From Brevibacterium spongiae (lineage in GTDB: Bacteria; Actinomycetota; Actinomycetes; Actinomycetales; Brevibacteriaceae), in assembly GCF_026168515.1 (NCBI RefSeq), contig NZ_CP093443.1:2418001-2482000 (forward strand): a stretch of 64,000 bases of DNA, read 5' to 3'. This document shows, piece by piece, positions 21,719 through 29,963 of the stretch. A program made the position numbers and the translations under genes. Under the pieces are notes generated by a model. That model did no database searches and had not been told where the DNA came from. It worked only from the letters and a program-made list of their open reading frames with translations. The first letter of the stretch is position 1. Each line of letters starts with the position of its first letter.

Positions 21719-21767
21719 GGGGCGGACTCCTCATCATTGACGGTCGACTGCTGGCCGCGACTCCGAA

Positions 21768-21798
21768 GAGGGAAGTCCCCTGAGTGGGAAGTCCCCTG
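21768..21798. repeat. Two-copy 15-bp repeat
   Basis: GAGGGAAGTCCCCTG (21768-21782) and GTGGGAAGTCCCCTG (21784-21798), separated by one base, with a third partial copy (GAGGGAAT) starting at 21801. Confidence 0.65.
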
Positions 21799-21821
21799 TG
21801 AGGGAATCGGACCAACCCCTC

Positions 21822-21932
21822 ACATCTATCACGGACGGGCACATCTGTGACGGACGGCGCATCTGTGATGGGCGGGCGCATCTTTCACGGACGACCACAA
21901 CTATCACGGTTGGCGCATCTATGACGGACTGT
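21822..21932. repeat. Six-copy 18-19-bp direct repeat upstream of the Pls-like gene
   Basis: Units start at 21822, 21841, 21859, 21878, 21897 and 21915. The first is ACATCTATCACGGACGGGC; the shared core is CATCT followed by ATCACGG or GTGACGG. The array sits just upstream of the predicted promoter and is not coding in any convincing frame. Confidence 0.75.
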
Positions 21933-22108: not shown

Positions 22109-25100
22109 GTGAGAGAATACGCACCGCAGTTCCCGTCCCCCTCGCGGCCCCGTGAGGACCGCACACTCATCGACGTCCTCCTCGAGTCGGCGAGCGCGCA
22201 TCCCGACCAGCCGGCGCTCGACGACGGCACGCGGGTGCTCAGCTACGCAGAGCTCATCAGCGCCATCCGCGATCTCGCACTTGAGATGGCCGAAGCCGGC
22301 ATCGGTCCCGGTGACAAGGTCGGCATCCGTGTCCCCTCGGGTTCGGTGGACCTGTACCTGGCGATCCTGGCCACACTGATGCTCGGCGCGGCGTACGTTC
22401 CCGTCGACGTCGACGATCCCGATGAGCGGGCGCGCACCGTATTCGCCGAGGCGGCCGTGACCGGAGTCATCACCGCTGAGAGACGCATCGAATCCCGCAC
22501 CGAACGCGGACCGTTGGAGCGGTCCGAGCTGCGTTCCCCCACACCTGATGACGACTGCTGGGTGATCTTCACCTCCGGTTCGACGGGCACCCCGAAGGGT
22601 GTGGCAGTGACCCATCGTTCGGCGGCGGCCTTCGTCGATGCCGAGGCGGCCCTGTTCTGCCAGGAGGAGCCGCTGGGACCGGGTGACCGCGTGCTCGCCG
22701 GACTGTCCGTAGCCTTCGACGCCAGCTGCGAGGAGATGTGGCTGGCGTGGCGCCACGGGGCGTGCCTCGTCCCGGCCCCGCGGGCCCTGGTGAAGTCCGG
22801 GATGGATCTGGGCCCGTGGCTGTCGTCGCGACAGATCACCGTCGTCTCGACAGTGCCGACCCTTGCGGCGCTGTGGCCGGCCGAGAGCCTCGACAATGTG
22901 CGTCTGCTCATCTTCGGAGGCGAGGCCTGCCCGCCGGAGCTCGGCCGCAGGCTCAGCGACGACGACCGTGAAGTGTGGAACACCTACGGCCCTACCGAAG
23001 CGACCGTCGTCGCGTGTGCTGCCATGCTCGACGGCAGCGAACCCGTCCGCATCGGCCTGCCGCTCAAAGGGTGGACTCTGGCCGTCGTCGACGCCGAGGG
23101 CGTACCCGTCGCCGCAGGCGAGACAGGTGAGCTCATCATCGGCGGAGTCGGTTTGGCCCGCTACCTCGATGCTGCCAAGGACGCAGAGAAGTTCGCTCCC
23201 ATGCCCAGCCTCGGCTGGGAACGGGCGTACCGGTCCGGCGACCTCGTCATCAACGACCCGGCCGGACTAATCTTCGTCGGCCGGGCCGATGAGCAGATCA
23301 AGCTCGGCGGCAGACGCATCGAACTCGGAGAGATCGATGCCGCCCTGCAGGCCCTGCCCGGTGTCGAAGGCGCCGCCGCCGCGGTGAAGAAGACCGCGGC
23401 CGGAACGGATGTCCTCATCGGCTACCTGGCCCCCGGCTCCGGATACGGCGAGGCCGAGCTTCCCGGCTGGGAGTCGACGCTGCGCGAGGGGCTGCCGGCC
23501 GCGCTCGTGCCGCGCCTGGCTCTCGTCGAGGACCTGCCCACGAAGACCTCCGGCAAGGTCGACCGCAATGCTCTGCCGTGGCCGCTCGACGACGGTGCCG
23601 AGACGTCCTCATCCGACGAGGTCTTCGATGAGGACACCGAATGGGTCGGGCAGCAGTGGACCGCGGTCCTCGGCACCCGACCGGGCAGCGATACCGACTT
23701 CTTCACCGCCGGCGGCGGCTCCCTGGCTGCGGCTCAGCTCGTCTCCCGACTGCGCACCCGCCACCCCAGCGTCACCGTCGGCGACATCTACGCCCATCCG
23801 CGCTTCGGCGCCCTGGCCAGGCTCTGCCTCGGCGAGGAGGGCTCCGGGATCGGACCGACCGGACCCAAGCGCACGATCACACGGACATCTCGGGGGATGC
23901 AGGCTTTCCAGGTTCTGCTCGGGATCCCGGTGCACATCCTCGGCGGGGTCCGGTGGGTCGTTCTCGCAATGCTGGCGGCCAATATCGGCGTCGGCCTGGG
24001 CGCGGACCTGCCGTTGACCCCATGGCCGGTCGTGCTCGTCCTCTTCCTCGTCTTCGTCACCGCGTGGGGGCGGATGCTCATCTCGGCAGCCGCCGCACGG
24101 CTGCTCATGATCGGCATCCGGCCAGGTGTCTATCCGCGCTCAGGGTGGGTGCACAAACGGCTGTGGCTGGCCGAGCACATCGCGGACCTCGCTGCGGCGG
24201 TCTCGGTGGCGAGCGCACCGTGGGTGACCTGGTACGCGAAGCTGTTGGGCAACCGGATCGGTGCCGATGCCGATCTGCATTCGGTGCCTCCGGTGACCGG
24301 ATTCCTCACCCTCGGCGACGGGGCGGCGGTCGAGCCCGAGGTCGATCTCAAGGGCTGGTGGGTCGACGGAGATCTGCTGCGCATCGGTCGCATCGATATC
24401 AGTCGCAATGCCACGATCGGTGCCCGGTCGACGCTCATGCCCGGCGCCGAGGTGGGGGCTGGGGCCCTCGTCGAAGCCGGCTCCGCGGTGACCGGTCGGG
24501 TGCGGAAGAACCAGATCTATTCGGGTTCGCCGGCCGTGCGTGTGGGGAAGGCGAAGAAGTCCTGGCCGGATCCCCCGCCGCGGCGGAGTCTGCCGTTCCT
24601 GTTCTATGCCGTCGGGTCCCAGATCAATGCGCTGCTGCCGTATCTCGCGGTGGTGCCTGGTGTCGCGCTCATGCTCGCGGTCTCCGGGATCGAGGTCGTG
24701 GAGTCTCCGTGGCTGTTGGTCGCGTGGTCACCGGTGGTGACGTGCCTGTGGTTCCTCACCACGGCGCTGCTCGTCCTCGTCTCGGTGCGGATCCTGGCGA
24801 TCGGCATGGAGGAGGGCGAGTTCCCCGTCCGTTCGGCTCGCGGATACCGGGTGTGGGCGACGGAGCGTCTGCTCGATATGTCCCGGGATCTGCTGTTCCC
24901 CCTCTACGCGTCGATGCTCACCCCGTGGTGGCTGCGCCTCCTCGGTGCCAAGGTGGGGCCGGGCACGGAGATCTCGACCGTCGTGTTCGTGCCGAAGATG
25001 ACGACGATCGCGGCGGGAGCTTTCCTCGCCGATGACACCATGGTCGCCAGCTATGAGCTCGGCCACGGGTGGATGCGGGCCGGGCGTGCGAAGGTCGGCA

Positions 25101-26128
25101 AACGGGCCTTCCTCGGCAACTCGGGAATCGCCTCACCCGGGCGTCGGGTGCCGAAGAACGCCCTGGTCGCAGTGCTCTCGGCAGCTCCGGCGAAGGCGAA
25201 GAAGGGCTCGTCGTGGCTCGGCTCTCCCCCGGTGCAGCTGCGACGCTCGGCTGTGGAGTCCGATGAGTCGCTCACCTATGCCCCGACCTTCGGGGTCAAA
25301 GCTGCGCGCGCTTTCTGGGAGACGCTGCGGATCTCGTCGATCATCGCCGGTGGTGTGCTCATCACCGCAGTGATCCTCACCATCTGGTTCTTCCTCGGAC
25401 TGCCGGGAGGGGTGGCTGCGGAGGCGACGGGGTTCGTCGCGTCGGTCGCTCTGGCCCTGGCCACCTCGGGGATCGTGATGATGGCCGCCGGTGCTGTGGC
25501 GGCGGGAATGGCGGTGGCCGCGAAATGGGTCCTCGCCGGTCCCATCCGTGCCGGGGAGCATCCGCTGTGGTCGTCGTTCATCTGGCGCAACGAGGTGGCC
25601 GACTGCTTCGTCGAACTCGTCGCCGCCCCGTGGTTCGCGCGCAACGCCGTGGGCACCCCTGCGATCGTGTGGTATCTGCGGGCGATGGGGGCGAAGATCG
25701 GACACGGTGTGTGGTGTGAGAGCTACTGGCTGCCGGAGGCCGACCTCGTGCGGCTCGGAGACAACTCGACGATCAACCGCGGCTGTGTGGTGCAGACTCA
25801 CCTGTTCCACGACAGAGTGATGAGCCTCGACACGGTCGAACTCGATCCCGGTGCCACGCTGGGTCCCAACAGCGTCATCCTGCCGGCGTCCACGCTGGGC
25901 GAGAACGCCACCGTGGGTGCCACCTCGCTGGTCATGCGCGGAGAGTTCGTGCCGGCCCATGCCTACTTCAGCGGCAATCCTGTCATACCCTGGGTGGATG
26001 CCCCGGAACTCCCCTCACTCAGCGAAGAAGACCACGACGACGAAGGCCGAGACGAGCCAGGCCGCGACGGACACGGCCGCGACGACGAAGGGCGCGACGA
26101 CGTCCGGTCGGAGCGATCACATGCCTGA
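22109..26128 (+). CDS. Pls/PosA-family single-module nonribosomal peptide synthetase
   Basis: 1339 residues from a GTG. An adenylation domain spans about 15-500: FTSGSTGTPKGVAVTHRS, FDASCEEMW with Asp204, YGPTEATVV, and Lys483 in KTSGKVDR. A carrier domain has Ser538 in AGGGSLAAAQ. Then come six or so membrane helices and three left-handed beta-helix blocks (about 715-840, 950-1060, 1190-1310; hexapeptide-like IGARSTLMPGAEVGAGALVEAG). The length and architecture match epsilon-poly-lysine synthetase, in which the tandem C-terminal domains form the polymer. Partial specificity residues (D, A, E, F, W, T, then V, V) share D-A-E and V-V with remembered lysine codes. The Asp/Arg-rich tail overlaps the aminopeptidase gene by 8 nt. 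Activated amino acid not proven. Confidence 0.92.
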   Translation: MREYAPQFPSPSRPREDRTLIDVLLESASAHPDQPALDDGTRVLSYAELISAIRDLALEMAEAGIGPGDKVGIRVPSGSVDLYLAILATLMLGAAYVPVDVDDPDERARTVFAEAAVTGVITAERRIESRTERGPLERSELRSPTPDDDCWVIFTSGSTGTPKGVAVTHRSAAAFVDAEAALFCQEEPLGPGDRVLAGLSVAFDASCEEMWLAWRHGACLVPAPRALVKSGMDLGPWLSSRQITVVSTVPTLAALWPAESLDNVRLLIFGGEACPPELGRRLSDDDREVWNTYGPTEATVVACAAMLDGSEPVRIGLPLKGWTLAVVDAEGVPVAAGETGELIIGGVGLARYLDAAKDAEKFAPMPSLGWERAYRSGDLVINDPAGLIFVGRADEQIKLGGRRIELGEIDAALQALPGVEGAAAAVKKTAAGTDVLIGYLAPGSGYGEAELPGWESTLREGLPAALVPRLALVEDLPTKTSGKVDRNALPWPLDDGAETSSSDEVFDEDTEWVGQQWTAVLGTRPGSDTDFFTAGGGSLAAAQLVSRLRTRHPSVTVGDIYAHPRFGALARLCLGEEGSGIGPTGPKRTITRTSRGMQAFQVLLGIPVHILGGVRWVVLAMLAANIGVGLGADLPLTPWPVVLVLFLVFVTAWGRMLISAAAARLLMIGIRPGVYPRSGWVHKRLWLAEHIADLAAAVSVASAPWVTWYAKLLGNRIGADADLHSVPPVTGFLTLGDGAAVEPEVDLKGWWVDGDLLRIGRIDISRNATIGARSTLMPGAEVGAGALVEAGSAVTGRVRKNQIYSGSPAVRVGKAKKSWPDPPPRRSLPFLFYAVGSQINALLPYLAVVPGVALMLAVSGIEVVESPWLLVAWSPVVTCLWFLTTALLVLVSVRILAIGMEEGEFPVRSARGYRVWATERLLDMSRDLLFPLYASMLTPWWLRLLGAKVGPGTEISTVVFVPKMTTIAAGAFLADDTMVASYELGHGWMRAGRAKVGKRAFLGNSGIASPGRRVPKNALVAVLSAAPAKAKKGSSWLGSPPVQLRRSAVESDESLTYAPTFGVKAARAFWETLRISSIIAGGVLITAVILTIWFFLGLPGGVAAEATGFVASVALALATSGIVMMAAGAVAAGMAVAAKWVLAGPIRAGEHPLWSSFIWRNEVADCFVELVAAPWFARNAVGTPAIVWYLRAMGAKIGHGVWCESYWLPEADLVRLGDNSTINRGCVVQTHLFHDRVMSLDTVELDPGATLGPNSVILPASTLGENATVGATSLVMRGEFVPAHAYFSGNPVIPWVDAPELPSLSEEDHDDEGRDEPGRDGHGRDDEGRDDVRSERSHA

Positions 26129-27629
26129 TTCCTATACTCCGGGGGTCGGCAGCGCGGATCTGCACATCGACCACTACGATCTCGACCTCGATTACCGGAT
26201 CGGCCCGAATCGGCTCTCGGCCAGGGCGGTGCTCACCGGTCGAGTGCTCACGGACACGACGTCGATCGTCCTCGACCTCACGGGTCTGCGGGTGACCAAG
26301 GCCAGCGTCAACGGCAGGAAGGTCCGGTATTCCGCCCGTGGGAAGAAGCTGCGGCTGACGACTCCCTCGCTCAAACGAGACCAGCCTGTCGTCATCGACA
26401 TCAGCTATACGGGCAATCCGGAGCCGGCGATCGGGACATGGGGCGACATCGGCTGGGAAGAGCTCGAAGACGGTGTGCTCGTGGCCGGTCAGCCCGTCGG
26501 CGCATCGACCTGGTTCCCGTGCAATGACCATCCGTCGAACAAGGCGCAGTACCGGATCAGGGTGCTCGTCGAATCCGAGTACACGGTGGTGTCCAATGGG
26601 AGCCTGACGAAGAAGACTCGCAAGGCCGGGCGCACCCAATGGACGTACGAGTCGACGACTCCCCTGGCGACCTACCTGGCGACGGTGCAGATCGGGCGGT
26701 ACAAGTACGGTGAGATTCCGCTGAGCTCCGGAGCGACGGGGTTCGGCGCCTCGATGATCGGCGCAGCGAAGGATGCTGCCGCCGGTTCGGCCAGGGACGC
26801 CCTGTCGAGTGCCGTCAGAGGGGTGACCGGTGCCGCCGGCAGGGACGCGACAGTTGAGAACGCGTCGGGCAAGAACGCTTCTGCCAAGGCCGAGCCGGTC
26901 CACGACGCGAGCGGCAGACGCACCACGCACAGCCGGACGGAATCTCCCGTTCCCCTCGGTGTCTATGCCGACGATCATTGGGACGTGGCGGTGGAGCGCC
27001 TCGGCGTCCAGCACGGGATGATGAACCTGTTCATCGACCGCTTCGGCCCGTACCCCTTCGAGGTCTATGACGTGGTCGTGACCGATGATGTGCTCGAGAT
27101 CCCGCTGGAGTCGCAGCCTCTGTCCGTGCTCGGCCCCAATCATCTGGGCGCTGAGTGGGAGGCCGAGCGCCTCGTCGCCCATGAGATGGCCCACCAGTGG
27201 TTCGGGAACTCGCTGACACCCTCGCGGTGGAGGGACATCTGGCTCAACGAAGGCTTCGCATGCTACGCGGAGTGGCTGTGGTCGGAGGAGTCCGGTCGGG
27301 CGACCGCGCACGAACGTGCACAGGAATGGTGGGAGAAGCTGTCCGCGCAGCCGCAGGACATCCTGCTCGGCGATCCCGGCGGGCCGGACATGTTCGACGA
27401 CCGGGTGTACAAGCGCGGGGCACTGTGCCTGCACGCGCTGCGCCGGGAATTGGGCGATGCGGACTTCTTCACGGCGGTCGGCGAGTGGACGAAGCGGTAC
27501 CGCCATTCATCGGTGAGCACCGAGGAGTTCATCGACTGCGTCTCGGAGGTGTCCGGACGCGACATCGCCGAGGTGGTCCGTCCGTGGCTCGGCGAACTCG
27601 AGCTCCCGGAATTCCAAGAACTCCCGTAA
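26121..27629 (+). CDS. M1-family zinc aminopeptidase
   Basis: 502 residues from an ATG 8 nt before the end of the synthetase gene; the longer frame upstream is antisense-like noise. His354-Glu355 and His358 in VAHEMAHQWFG plus Glu377 in WLNEGFA form the zinc site with the standard 18-residue spacing. VLEIPLESQPLS replaces the GxMEN substrate loop, as in many actinobacterial members. Residues about 200-275 are an Ala/Ser/Gly-rich insert absent from typical M1 enzymes. The overlap with the synthetase implies co-expression; zinc aminopeptidases have been described as epsilon-poly-lysine degraders in producer streptomycetes, so a trimming or self-protection role is plausible. No signal peptide is visible. 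Confidence 0.92.
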   Translation: MPDSYTPGVGSADLHIDHYDLDLDYRIGPNRLSARAVLTGRVLTDTTSIVLDLTGLRVTKASVNGRKVRYSARGKKLRLTTPSLKRDQPVVIDISYTGNPEPAIGTWGDIGWEELEDGVLVAGQPVGASTWFPCNDHPSNKAQYRIRVLVESEYTVVSNGSLTKKTRKAGRTQWTYESTTPLATYLATVQIGRYKYGEIPLSSGATGFGASMIGAAKDAAAGSARDALSSAVRGVTGAAGRDATVENASGKNASAKAEPVHDASGRRTTHSRTESPVPLGVYADDHWDVAVERLGVQHGMMNLFIDRFGPYPFEVYDVVVTDDVLEIPLESQPLSVLGPNHLGAEWEAERLVAHEMAHQWFGNSLTPSRWRDIWLNEGFACYAEWLWSEESGRATAHERAQEWWEKLSAQPQDILLGDPGGPDMFDDRVYKRGALCLHALRRELGDADFFTAVGEWTKRYRHSSVSTEEFIDCVSEVSGRDIAEVVRPWLGELELPEFQELP

Positions 27630-27753: not shown

Positions 27754-28650
27754 TCAGCCGAGCCGGCGGACGAGCACGTCGGAGTCGCCGTTGCGTCCGA
27801 CGGACACGAAGCCGTGGTCGGCGTAGAGCTTCGCCGCCCCGTTGCCGTCCTCGACGGAGAGGCTCACGGCTGGGAAGCCGCTCATCCGTGCCAGCGCACA
27901 TACCGTGTCGACGAGTGCTCCGCCGATCCCCTGCCCCTGATGGTCGGGCAGTACGGCGATCGAGAGTTCGGGGATGTCGGCGGCGACCCAGCCGTACCCG
28001 GTGAATGGCGCGCGATCGTCAATCGGCGACAGATCGGGGGCACCGCTGGTGTCCGAGCCCTCGGTGCCTGATCCGTCGATGTCTGATCCGTCGGGCTTCG
28101 AATCGTCGGCCTTCGATTCGTCGGTGTCTGAGGTGTTTGAGGAGTCTGCGTCGTCGGTGCCGGCGTCCGCGGCCTGACCCTCAGCCACGGTCTGACCTTC
28201 ATCCGCAGCCTGCCCCTCGGACGCAGCCTTCTGCTCGGGCACAACCTCACTGCGGACCACCTCGGTGCCGGATTTCTCCAGCGCCGCGGCGAAATCACCG
28301 CTCACCCTGTCATCGGACCTGCCGACGACGTCGTCGATGTCGGCCAGTCGCACCCAGGCGAGCCCGATGATCGGCGATTCGGGGTCAGCTTCGGCATGGG
28401 CGGCCACGGCGATGTCGCCGTTGCGTCCCCAATCGCGGTAGTAGAAGGCGGCGTCGCTGCGGTATTTCAGATCCTCGATCTCGATGCGCGGCTTGTCCAT
28501 GGACCAGTTGAAGCACAGATCGAGGAAGGGCAGGAAGGTCTCGTCTGGGGTCTCAGCCGGCAGCGGACGGATCCGTCCGCGCAGGGAGGAAGACCCCGCC
28601 TCGGCGGGGGTTGCCTGCGAATCATTCGCGACGTTCTTCTCAGCGGTCAT
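27754..28650 (-). CDS. GNAT acetyltransferase with acidic insert
   Basis: 298 residues from the ATG at 28650, preceded by AAAGGAA. The acetyl-CoA site is clear: AVLPDHQGQGIGGALVDTV followed by GFPAVSLSVEDGNGAAKLY and a closing GFVSVGR. Upstream, FLPFLDLCFNWSMD and IIGLAWVRL give the first half of the fold. Between the halves sits an ~80-residue Asp/Ser/Gly/Glu-rich insert (about residues 135-215) built from short repeats such as EGQAADEGQ and DGSDIDGSG. The acetyl acceptor is unknown. The ATG overlaps the MATE-gene stop (ATGA), so the two are coupled. Confidence 0.85.
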   Translation of the reverse strand: MTAEKNVANDSQATPAEAGSSSLRGRIRPLPAETPDETFLPFLDLCFNWSMDKPRIEIEDLKYRSDAAFYYRDWGRNGDIAVAAHAEADPESPIIGLAWVRLADIDDVVGRSDDRVSGDFAAALEKSGTEVVRSEVVPEQKAASEGQAADEGQTVAEGQAADAGTDDADSSNTSDTDESKADDSKPDGSDIDGSGTEGSDTSGAPDLSPIDDRAPFTGYGWVAADIPELSIAVLPDHQGQGIGGALVDTVCALARMSGFPAVSLSVEDGNGAAKLYADHGFVSVGRNGDSDVLVRRLG

Positions 28651-29963
28651 GAGATTCCTTTCTCGACTGCGCGATCGATCCACGCACGGTTGCGGACTCG
28701 CCAGCCCAAGGTCAGGGCGCGGAAACTGACGAATCCGATGCAGAATGCGGCCCACAGTCCCGGCGCTCCCGGCCACATCTGGGCGACCGGGACGAGCAGG
28801 ATCGCATAACCGATCACAGCGACCAATTGTGCCAGAGCGAGGTATCGCGCGTCCTCAGCTCCCATGAGCACTCCGTCGAGGACGAAGACGTAGCCGGCGA
28901 TCGGCAGGCTCACCGCGAGCACCGGCAGGAGCGCGGTCAGTGCGCTCAGCACCTCGGGGTCGGTGGAGAAGGCCCGCGGGATGATTCCGGACCCGGCGAA
29001 GAGGATGATGCCGACGACGATCCCGAACACGATCCCCCACAGGCACAGGCGTCTGTTGATCGCGGCGACCGCCTCGGTGTTCTTCGCCCCCAGTTCGAGT
29101 CCGATCATCGCCTGACCTGCGATGGCAAGCGAATCGAGGGCAAGCGCGAGCGCGAAGAAGATGCTTTGGGCAACTTGGATCGCGGCGAGTTCGGTGGTGC
29201 CCATCGACGTGGCGATGAAGACGAGGATGATGAGTGCGGCGCGCAGTGATATGTTGCGCACCAGCAGCCAGCCGGAGGTCTTCGCCGACGAGAAGACGCC
29301 CGACCAGTCGGGGCGGACGCTGGCGTGGAGGCGTTTGGCGGCGCGGACGGAGATGATGATGTAGATGGTGCACATGCCTGCCTGCGCGATGACAGTGCCC
29401 ATCGCCGAGCCGGCCACTCCCATATCGAGTCCGTAGATGAAGAGGGCATTGAGGCCGATGTTCGCGATGCATCCGGCGGCGGCGACGATCAGCGGAGTCT
29501 TCGTGTCCTGGAGTCCGCGCAGGAGCCCGGTGGCCGCGATGACGGTGAGCATGAACGGCAGTCCCCACCACGAGATCGCCAGATACGAATAAGCACCGGC
29601 GGCGATCTCCGGTTCGGGTCCGAATGCCGCGATCGCGGTATTCAGCAGCGGCAGTCCGATGATGATGAGCAGCACCGAGGTGCACAGTGCGAGCCAGATC
29701 CCGTCGAACCCGGCCGTGATCGCTCCCGCGCGGTCACCCGATCCCATCCGCTTCGCGACGCGCGGGGTCGTGGCATAGGCGAGGAAGATCATCAGTCCCA
29801 GAACCGTCTGCAGGATCGTCGACGCGATCGCCAGCGATCCCAGAGCACCCGCACCGAGGTGGCCGACCATAGCCGTGTCCGTGAGCAGGAAGATGGGTTC
29901 GGCGATCAGTGCTCCGAGCGCGGGGAGTGCTAAACGGAGAATGTCCTTGTCGATCGCTGCCAC
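28647..29963 (-). CDS. MATE-family efflux transporter (DinF-like)
   Basis: 438 residues from a GTG; twelve hydrophobic helices. N-terminal ALPALGALIAEPIFLLTDTAMVGHLG is the standard MATE/DinF opening, and the repeat in the second half (AIQVAQSIFFALALALDS, GQAMIGLELG) supports it. DinF-type proteins export cationic or amphipathic compounds using Na+ or H+. The GNAT gene overlaps the 3' end. The pair is convergent with the Pls-like operon; a link to export of or resistance to its product is only speculation. Confidence 0.92.
   Translation of the reverse strand: MAAIDKDILRLALPALGALIAEPIFLLTDTAMVGHLGAGALGSLAIASTILQTVLGLMIFLAYATTPRVAKRMGSGDRAGAITAGFDGIWLALCTSVLLIIIGLPLLNTAIAAFGPEPEIAAGAYSYLAISWWGLPFMLTVIAATGLLRGLQDTKTPLIVAAAGCIANIGLNALFIYGLDMGVAGSAMGTVIAQAGMCTIYIIISVRAAKRLHASVRPDWSGVFSSAKTSGWLLVRNISLRAALIILVFIATSMGTTELAAIQVAQSIFFALALALDSLAIAGQAMIGLELGAKNTEAVAAINRRLCLWGIVFGIVVGIILFAGSGIIPRAFSTDPEVLSALTALLPVLAVSLPIAGYVFVLDGVLMGAEDARYLALAQLVAVIGYAILLVPVAQMWPGAPGLWAAFCIGFVSFRALTLGWRVRNRAWIDRAVEKGIS

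Follow-up and report, generated by a model that had tools for sequence, protein, structure and literature searches.

Two overlapping genes in Brevibacterium spongiae very probably form a pls-pldII operon, whose products would make, and degrade, epsilon-poly-L-lysine (epsilon-PL). They lie within a 64,000-nucleotide stretch of the genome (hereafter the window; contig NZ_CP093443.1, positions 2,418,001 to 2,482,000 of the forward strand), and coordinates refer to the window unless another genome or locus is named. By analogy with characterized homologues, from which the lysine substrate, the isopeptide product, epsilon-PL degradation and self-protection are all drawn, the adenylation (A) domain of the synthetase would activate L-lysine as lysyl-AMP and then load the carrier domain. 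The membrane region, with its three acyltransferase-like beta-helix blocks, would join lysines through alpha-carboxyl to epsilon-amino bonds. The polymer, expected to reach ~25-35 residues, is presumably exported, and degradation of epsilon-PL by the coupled M1 zinc peptidase would protect the producer or limit chain length.

Architecture of the synthetase

The pls gene (22109..26128, plus strand) starts with a GTG codon, has GGAAG a short way upstream of it and encodes a predicted epsilon-poly-L-lysine synthetase of 1339 amino acids, whose best match in the PDB is 7wew. An earlier prediction, made from the sequence without database searches, described a 1339-residue protein with adenylation, carrier, membrane and three beta-helix blocks, and the ORF, Pfam, TIGR02353, hydropathy and AlphaFold results agree on this arrangement. 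The ORF is confirmed as real and as an A-T-TM/beta-helix synthetase.

The A domain spans residues 17-494 (22157..23590), with residues 26-351 matching Pfam AMP-binding at 7e-62, and carries the A4 segment FDASCEEMW that had been pointed out in the original prediction. It is followed by a thiolation (carrier) domain at residues 512-572 (23642..23824; Pfam PP-binding, 2e-7), in which the phosphopantetheine serine is S538 of the motif GGGSL. The remainder of the protein is a membrane polymerization region (residues 600-1292; 23906..25984) built from three repeats, C1 to C3, of a TM pair and a beta-helix. Hydropathy reveals six hydrophobic helix regions arranged as three pairs, and Pfam also matches a hexapeptide domain. 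This same region scores 639 bits against TIGR02353, the curated NCBIfam terminal-domain model named ‘Pls/PosA family non-ribosomal peptide synthetase’, well above its cut-off of 423.1 bits, so the proposed C-terminal homology to Pls holds in a profile search as well as in the modeled fold.

A chance origin of these features is excluded, because E-values for the terminal domain and the A domain are ~1e-190 and homologues number in the hundreds. The closest named relatives, from B. epidermidis and B. iodinum, are 93% identical across the whole protein, while identity falls to 69-83% for other Brevibacterium and to 56-63% for other actinobacteria.

An AlphaFold model of residues 595-1300 (706 residues; 66 aligned sequences) has a pLDDT of 90.3 and a pTM of 0.90, and displays three repeats of a helix pair plus a beta-helix. 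Searches with Foldseek and VIA-align match this C-terminal model to hexapeptide acyltransferases. The C1 left-handed beta-helix block (~residues 715-816; 24251..24556), supported by Pfam Hexapep and by the strands of the model, aligns with galactoside and maltose O-acetyltransferases at Z ~13. The C3 left-handed block (~residues 1194-1298; 25688..26002) aligns with QdtC at Z 11.7 across model residues 586-706, and its conserved columns include the strongly conserved segment QTHLFHDR. The C2 block (~residues 944-1039; 24938..25225) is defined by the AlphaFold strand pattern and gave no separate match in the Foldseek and VIA-align search, which proves nothing. The same predicted architecture has been described for PosA, where it was likened to sugar-nucleotide acyltransferases (PMC10522769).

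The substrate pocket points to L-lysine

The best solved relative of the A domain is 7wew, the A domain of an epsilon-PL synthetase (4e-192, 66.7% identity). By standard GrsA numbering of pocket positions, the ten residues are D204, A205, E208, S247, I268, G270, T292, V300, V301 and K483, or DAESIGTVVK, with D204 being the D of FDASCEEMW. These positions were located by motif, and their spacing fits the published PosA residue numbering (PMC10522769). All ten are identical to those of 7wew, and the same code occurs in 87 of 91 aligned rows; of the four rows that depart from it, three belong to a paralogous group and one is a distant homologue. A literature search with the ten-letter string returned no papers.

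At the second pocket position, lysine enzymes carry Ala at the site of PosA Met218, the diaminopropionate enzyme has Phe there, and the poly-beta-lysine enzyme has a Gly code at this position (PMC10522769). Since the pocket of the B. spongiae enzyme is DAESIGTVVK, with Ala rather than Met, Phe or Gly, L-lysine is the predicted substrate, and homology to characterized enzymes narrows the probable product to epsilon-poly-L-lysine. Specificity of the A domain for ornithine, diaminobutyrate or diaminopropionate was rejected on the basis of the pocket residues. A tree that did not include verified ornithine, diaminobutyrate or diaminopropionate enzymes places the A domain in a group with 7wew (support 93/72) and separates it from the paralogue and from a homologue with the Phe-type pocket. 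The original prediction was right that the specificity residues fit a cationic amino acid, and there is no clustering with non-cationic substrates; it was too cautious in calling the match partial, since all ten positions equal those of a lysine-activating Pls.

A coupled M1 peptidase

The downstream gene (26121..27629, plus strand, ATG start at 26121) encodes a pldII-like M1 zinc metallopeptidase of 502 amino acids, recognized by Pfam Peptidase_M1 and M1_N, by the zinc site HExxH-x18-E at residue 354 and by synteny. It begins before pls has ended, and the 8-nucleotide overlap (26121-26128) is exactly as first described. The pairing of a maker with a trimmer or protector, also put forward at that time, matches the known pls-pldII system of Streptomyces albulus, wherein PldII is the major epsilon-PL-degrading aminopeptidase, is translationally coupled to pls and has a proposed role in self-protection (PMC9223678).

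A hydropathy scan of the M1 protein revealed no obvious signal peptide or TM segment, the highest 19-residue value being 0.94; S. albulus PldII is reported to lie outside the membrane. An insert of ~70 low-complexity residues (26733..26942) separates the N-terminal and catalytic domains. It was seen only in the closest Brevibacterium group, and tblastn matches from more distant species skip query residues ~205-274.

In the neighborhood comparison recommended in the original prediction, each of the 80 named loci, which are distributed across many actinobacterial families, has an M1 relative downstream of pls in the same orientation. Spacing is mostly within ~160 nucleotides, often with overlaps of 1, 4 or 8 nucleotides, and five loci have gaps of ~0.4-2.1 kb. 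Large negative gaps suggested Pls-M1 fusions at some loci, but separate ORFs were present in the seven loci checked and the gaps are artefactual. Among 57 Brevibacterium genomes, 43 carry both pls and this M1 type and 14 carry neither (Fisher p = 1.3e-13, a value that ignores shared ancestry). One of the 14 (G031) holds the paralogous synthetase alone, with no M1 of this type, and the pls-less genomes that were checked have M1 proteins only ~30% identical.

Alternative substrates, roles and expression

It is very improbable that the synthetase instead polymerizes another cationic diamino acid, such as ornithine, diaminobutyrate, diaminopropionate or beta-lysine. Enzymes of this sort do exist in the Pls family (PMC10522769, PMC8117764), and pockets in the family accept related substrates, with lysine being bound by PosA as well. 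However, these precedents are set against a pocket that is the same as that of a lysine enzyme at every position, and against a second residue that differs from those of PosA, the poly-diaminopropionate (PDAP) synthetase and the poly-beta-lysine enzyme. Among the actinobacterial synthetases, moreover, a partner peptidase has been reported for Pls but for none of the other three. The peptidase itself bears on a further reading, in which an unrelated aminopeptidase with a housekeeping role happens to lie downstream. M1 peptidases are common, and two more are encoded elsewhere in this genome, although both are distant (~30% identity). The close type found here accompanies pls in 43 of 43 genomes and is found in none of the 14 others, it holds its position beyond Brevibacterium in every named locus, and its S. 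albulus counterpart is coupled to pls; we therefore regard a housekeeping role as extremely improbable.

Whether a pls-pldII operon of this kind is used is a separate matter. Under ordinary conditions, this strain may keep its intact operon silent and normally make no polymer, which we consider possible, though not probable. A promoter and terminator scan found nothing above chance, with no sigma-70-like match upstream of pls. Many actinobacterial promoters are missed by consensus scans. Silence also has a precedent in Corynebacterium variabile, which in its native state made no epsilon-PL under the conditions tested and in which Pls went undetected by proteomics (PMC8117764). Against this, both reading frames are intact and highly conserved, and catalytic motifs are retained. 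A silent operon is compatible with the pls-pldII explanation, which is about enzyme activities.

Upstream repeats and flanking genes

In the intergenic region that separates pls from the divergently oriented gene upstream, TRF identifies a 19-bp unit repeated 5.8 times in tandem (21821..21929, plus strand; CACATCTATCACGGACGGG), and one copy of the unit is present at the corresponding site in both B. epidermidis and B. iodinum. This array is possibly a regulatory site. A genome-wide search for the repeat core uncovered two other matches, both weak, and no regulon is proposed because of this scarcity. TRF also reports a 16-bp unit nearby, AGAGGGAAGTCCCCTG, in 2.5 copies at 21767-21806.

Downstream, genes for a GNAT acetyltransferase and a MATE transporter (27754-29963, minus strand) converge on the operon. 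They were left out of the proposed system, because among the 80 loci they adjoin pls only within Brevibacterium and because they have the opposite orientation.

A second synthetase and other family members

The same genome encodes a second, divergent Pls/PosA-family synthetase (G000:C1:940969-944925, minus strand; L119:9970-13926). It is 47% identical to the pls product, passes the TIGR02353 cut-off at 492 bits and has the pocket DAESIGSVIK. It has no M1 partner, and nearby are a weak phosphopantetheinyl-transferase match, a LuxR-type regulator and a class-III aminotransferase. Members of this group occur in three of the 57 Brevibacterium genomes. The copy in one other Brevibacterium (G020:C1:916101-920009, minus strand; L120) has an in-frame TGA, which suggests that it may be decaying. 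With its two synthetases, this strain might make different cationic polymers, one from Pls with PldII and one from the PldII-free second enzyme, with the 19-bp array altering control of the first, but we consider this combination unlikely.

A family member from another genus of the order (L122:2518-6636) has the pocket DFEYNGTVTK, with Phe as in the diaminopropionate synthetase, and no M1 match was found within the 5-kb locus examined (L035).

Relation to known systems

Among the closest known parallels is pls-pldII of S. albulus, which shares the A-T-TM/C1-C3 domain order, all ten pocket residues (7wew) and translational coupling of the synthetase to an aminopeptidase gene, with the likeness to PldII drawn from its description. 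S. albulus belongs to another genus, the A domains differ at one-third of positions, and we infer epsilon-PL production for the B. spongiae enzyme; the M1 protein also departs from PldII in its low-complexity insert and, by hydropathy, in having no evident signal peptide. PosA, the delta-poly-L-ornithine synthetase of Acinetobacter baumannii, shares the family model and the predicted three-fold beta-helix membrane domain, whereas its pocket is DMEHNGTVSK and its operon consists of a single gene with no coupled peptidase (PMC10522769).

An operon of the same layout was reported in 2021 from C. variabile and other coryneforms, and expression of C. variabile Pls in S. coelicolor yielded epsilon-PL (PMC8117764). 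In that study, 14 of 15 Brevibacterium isolates had Pls, and the coryneform pockets matched those of confirmed Pls exactly or very closely; the C. variabile enzyme was the only one whose product was tested. Since then, epsilon-poly-L-lysine clusters have also been called in the published genomes of B. luteolum, B. casei and B. sediminis (PMC12467314, PMC12904602), and our literature search found no report of production by any Brevibacterium. Because these studies report the same arrangement, the finding is already known both in kind and in genus, and the evidence supports the original observation as real and correctly interpreted.

The B. spongiae operon is a clean, well-supported case of a published system, and it confirms the known picture for Brevibacterium, a genus of skin and cheese. 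It opens no new question, save that of the rare second synthetase in the same genome. What it adds is a quantitative link between pls and its peptidase over 57 Brevibacterium genomes.
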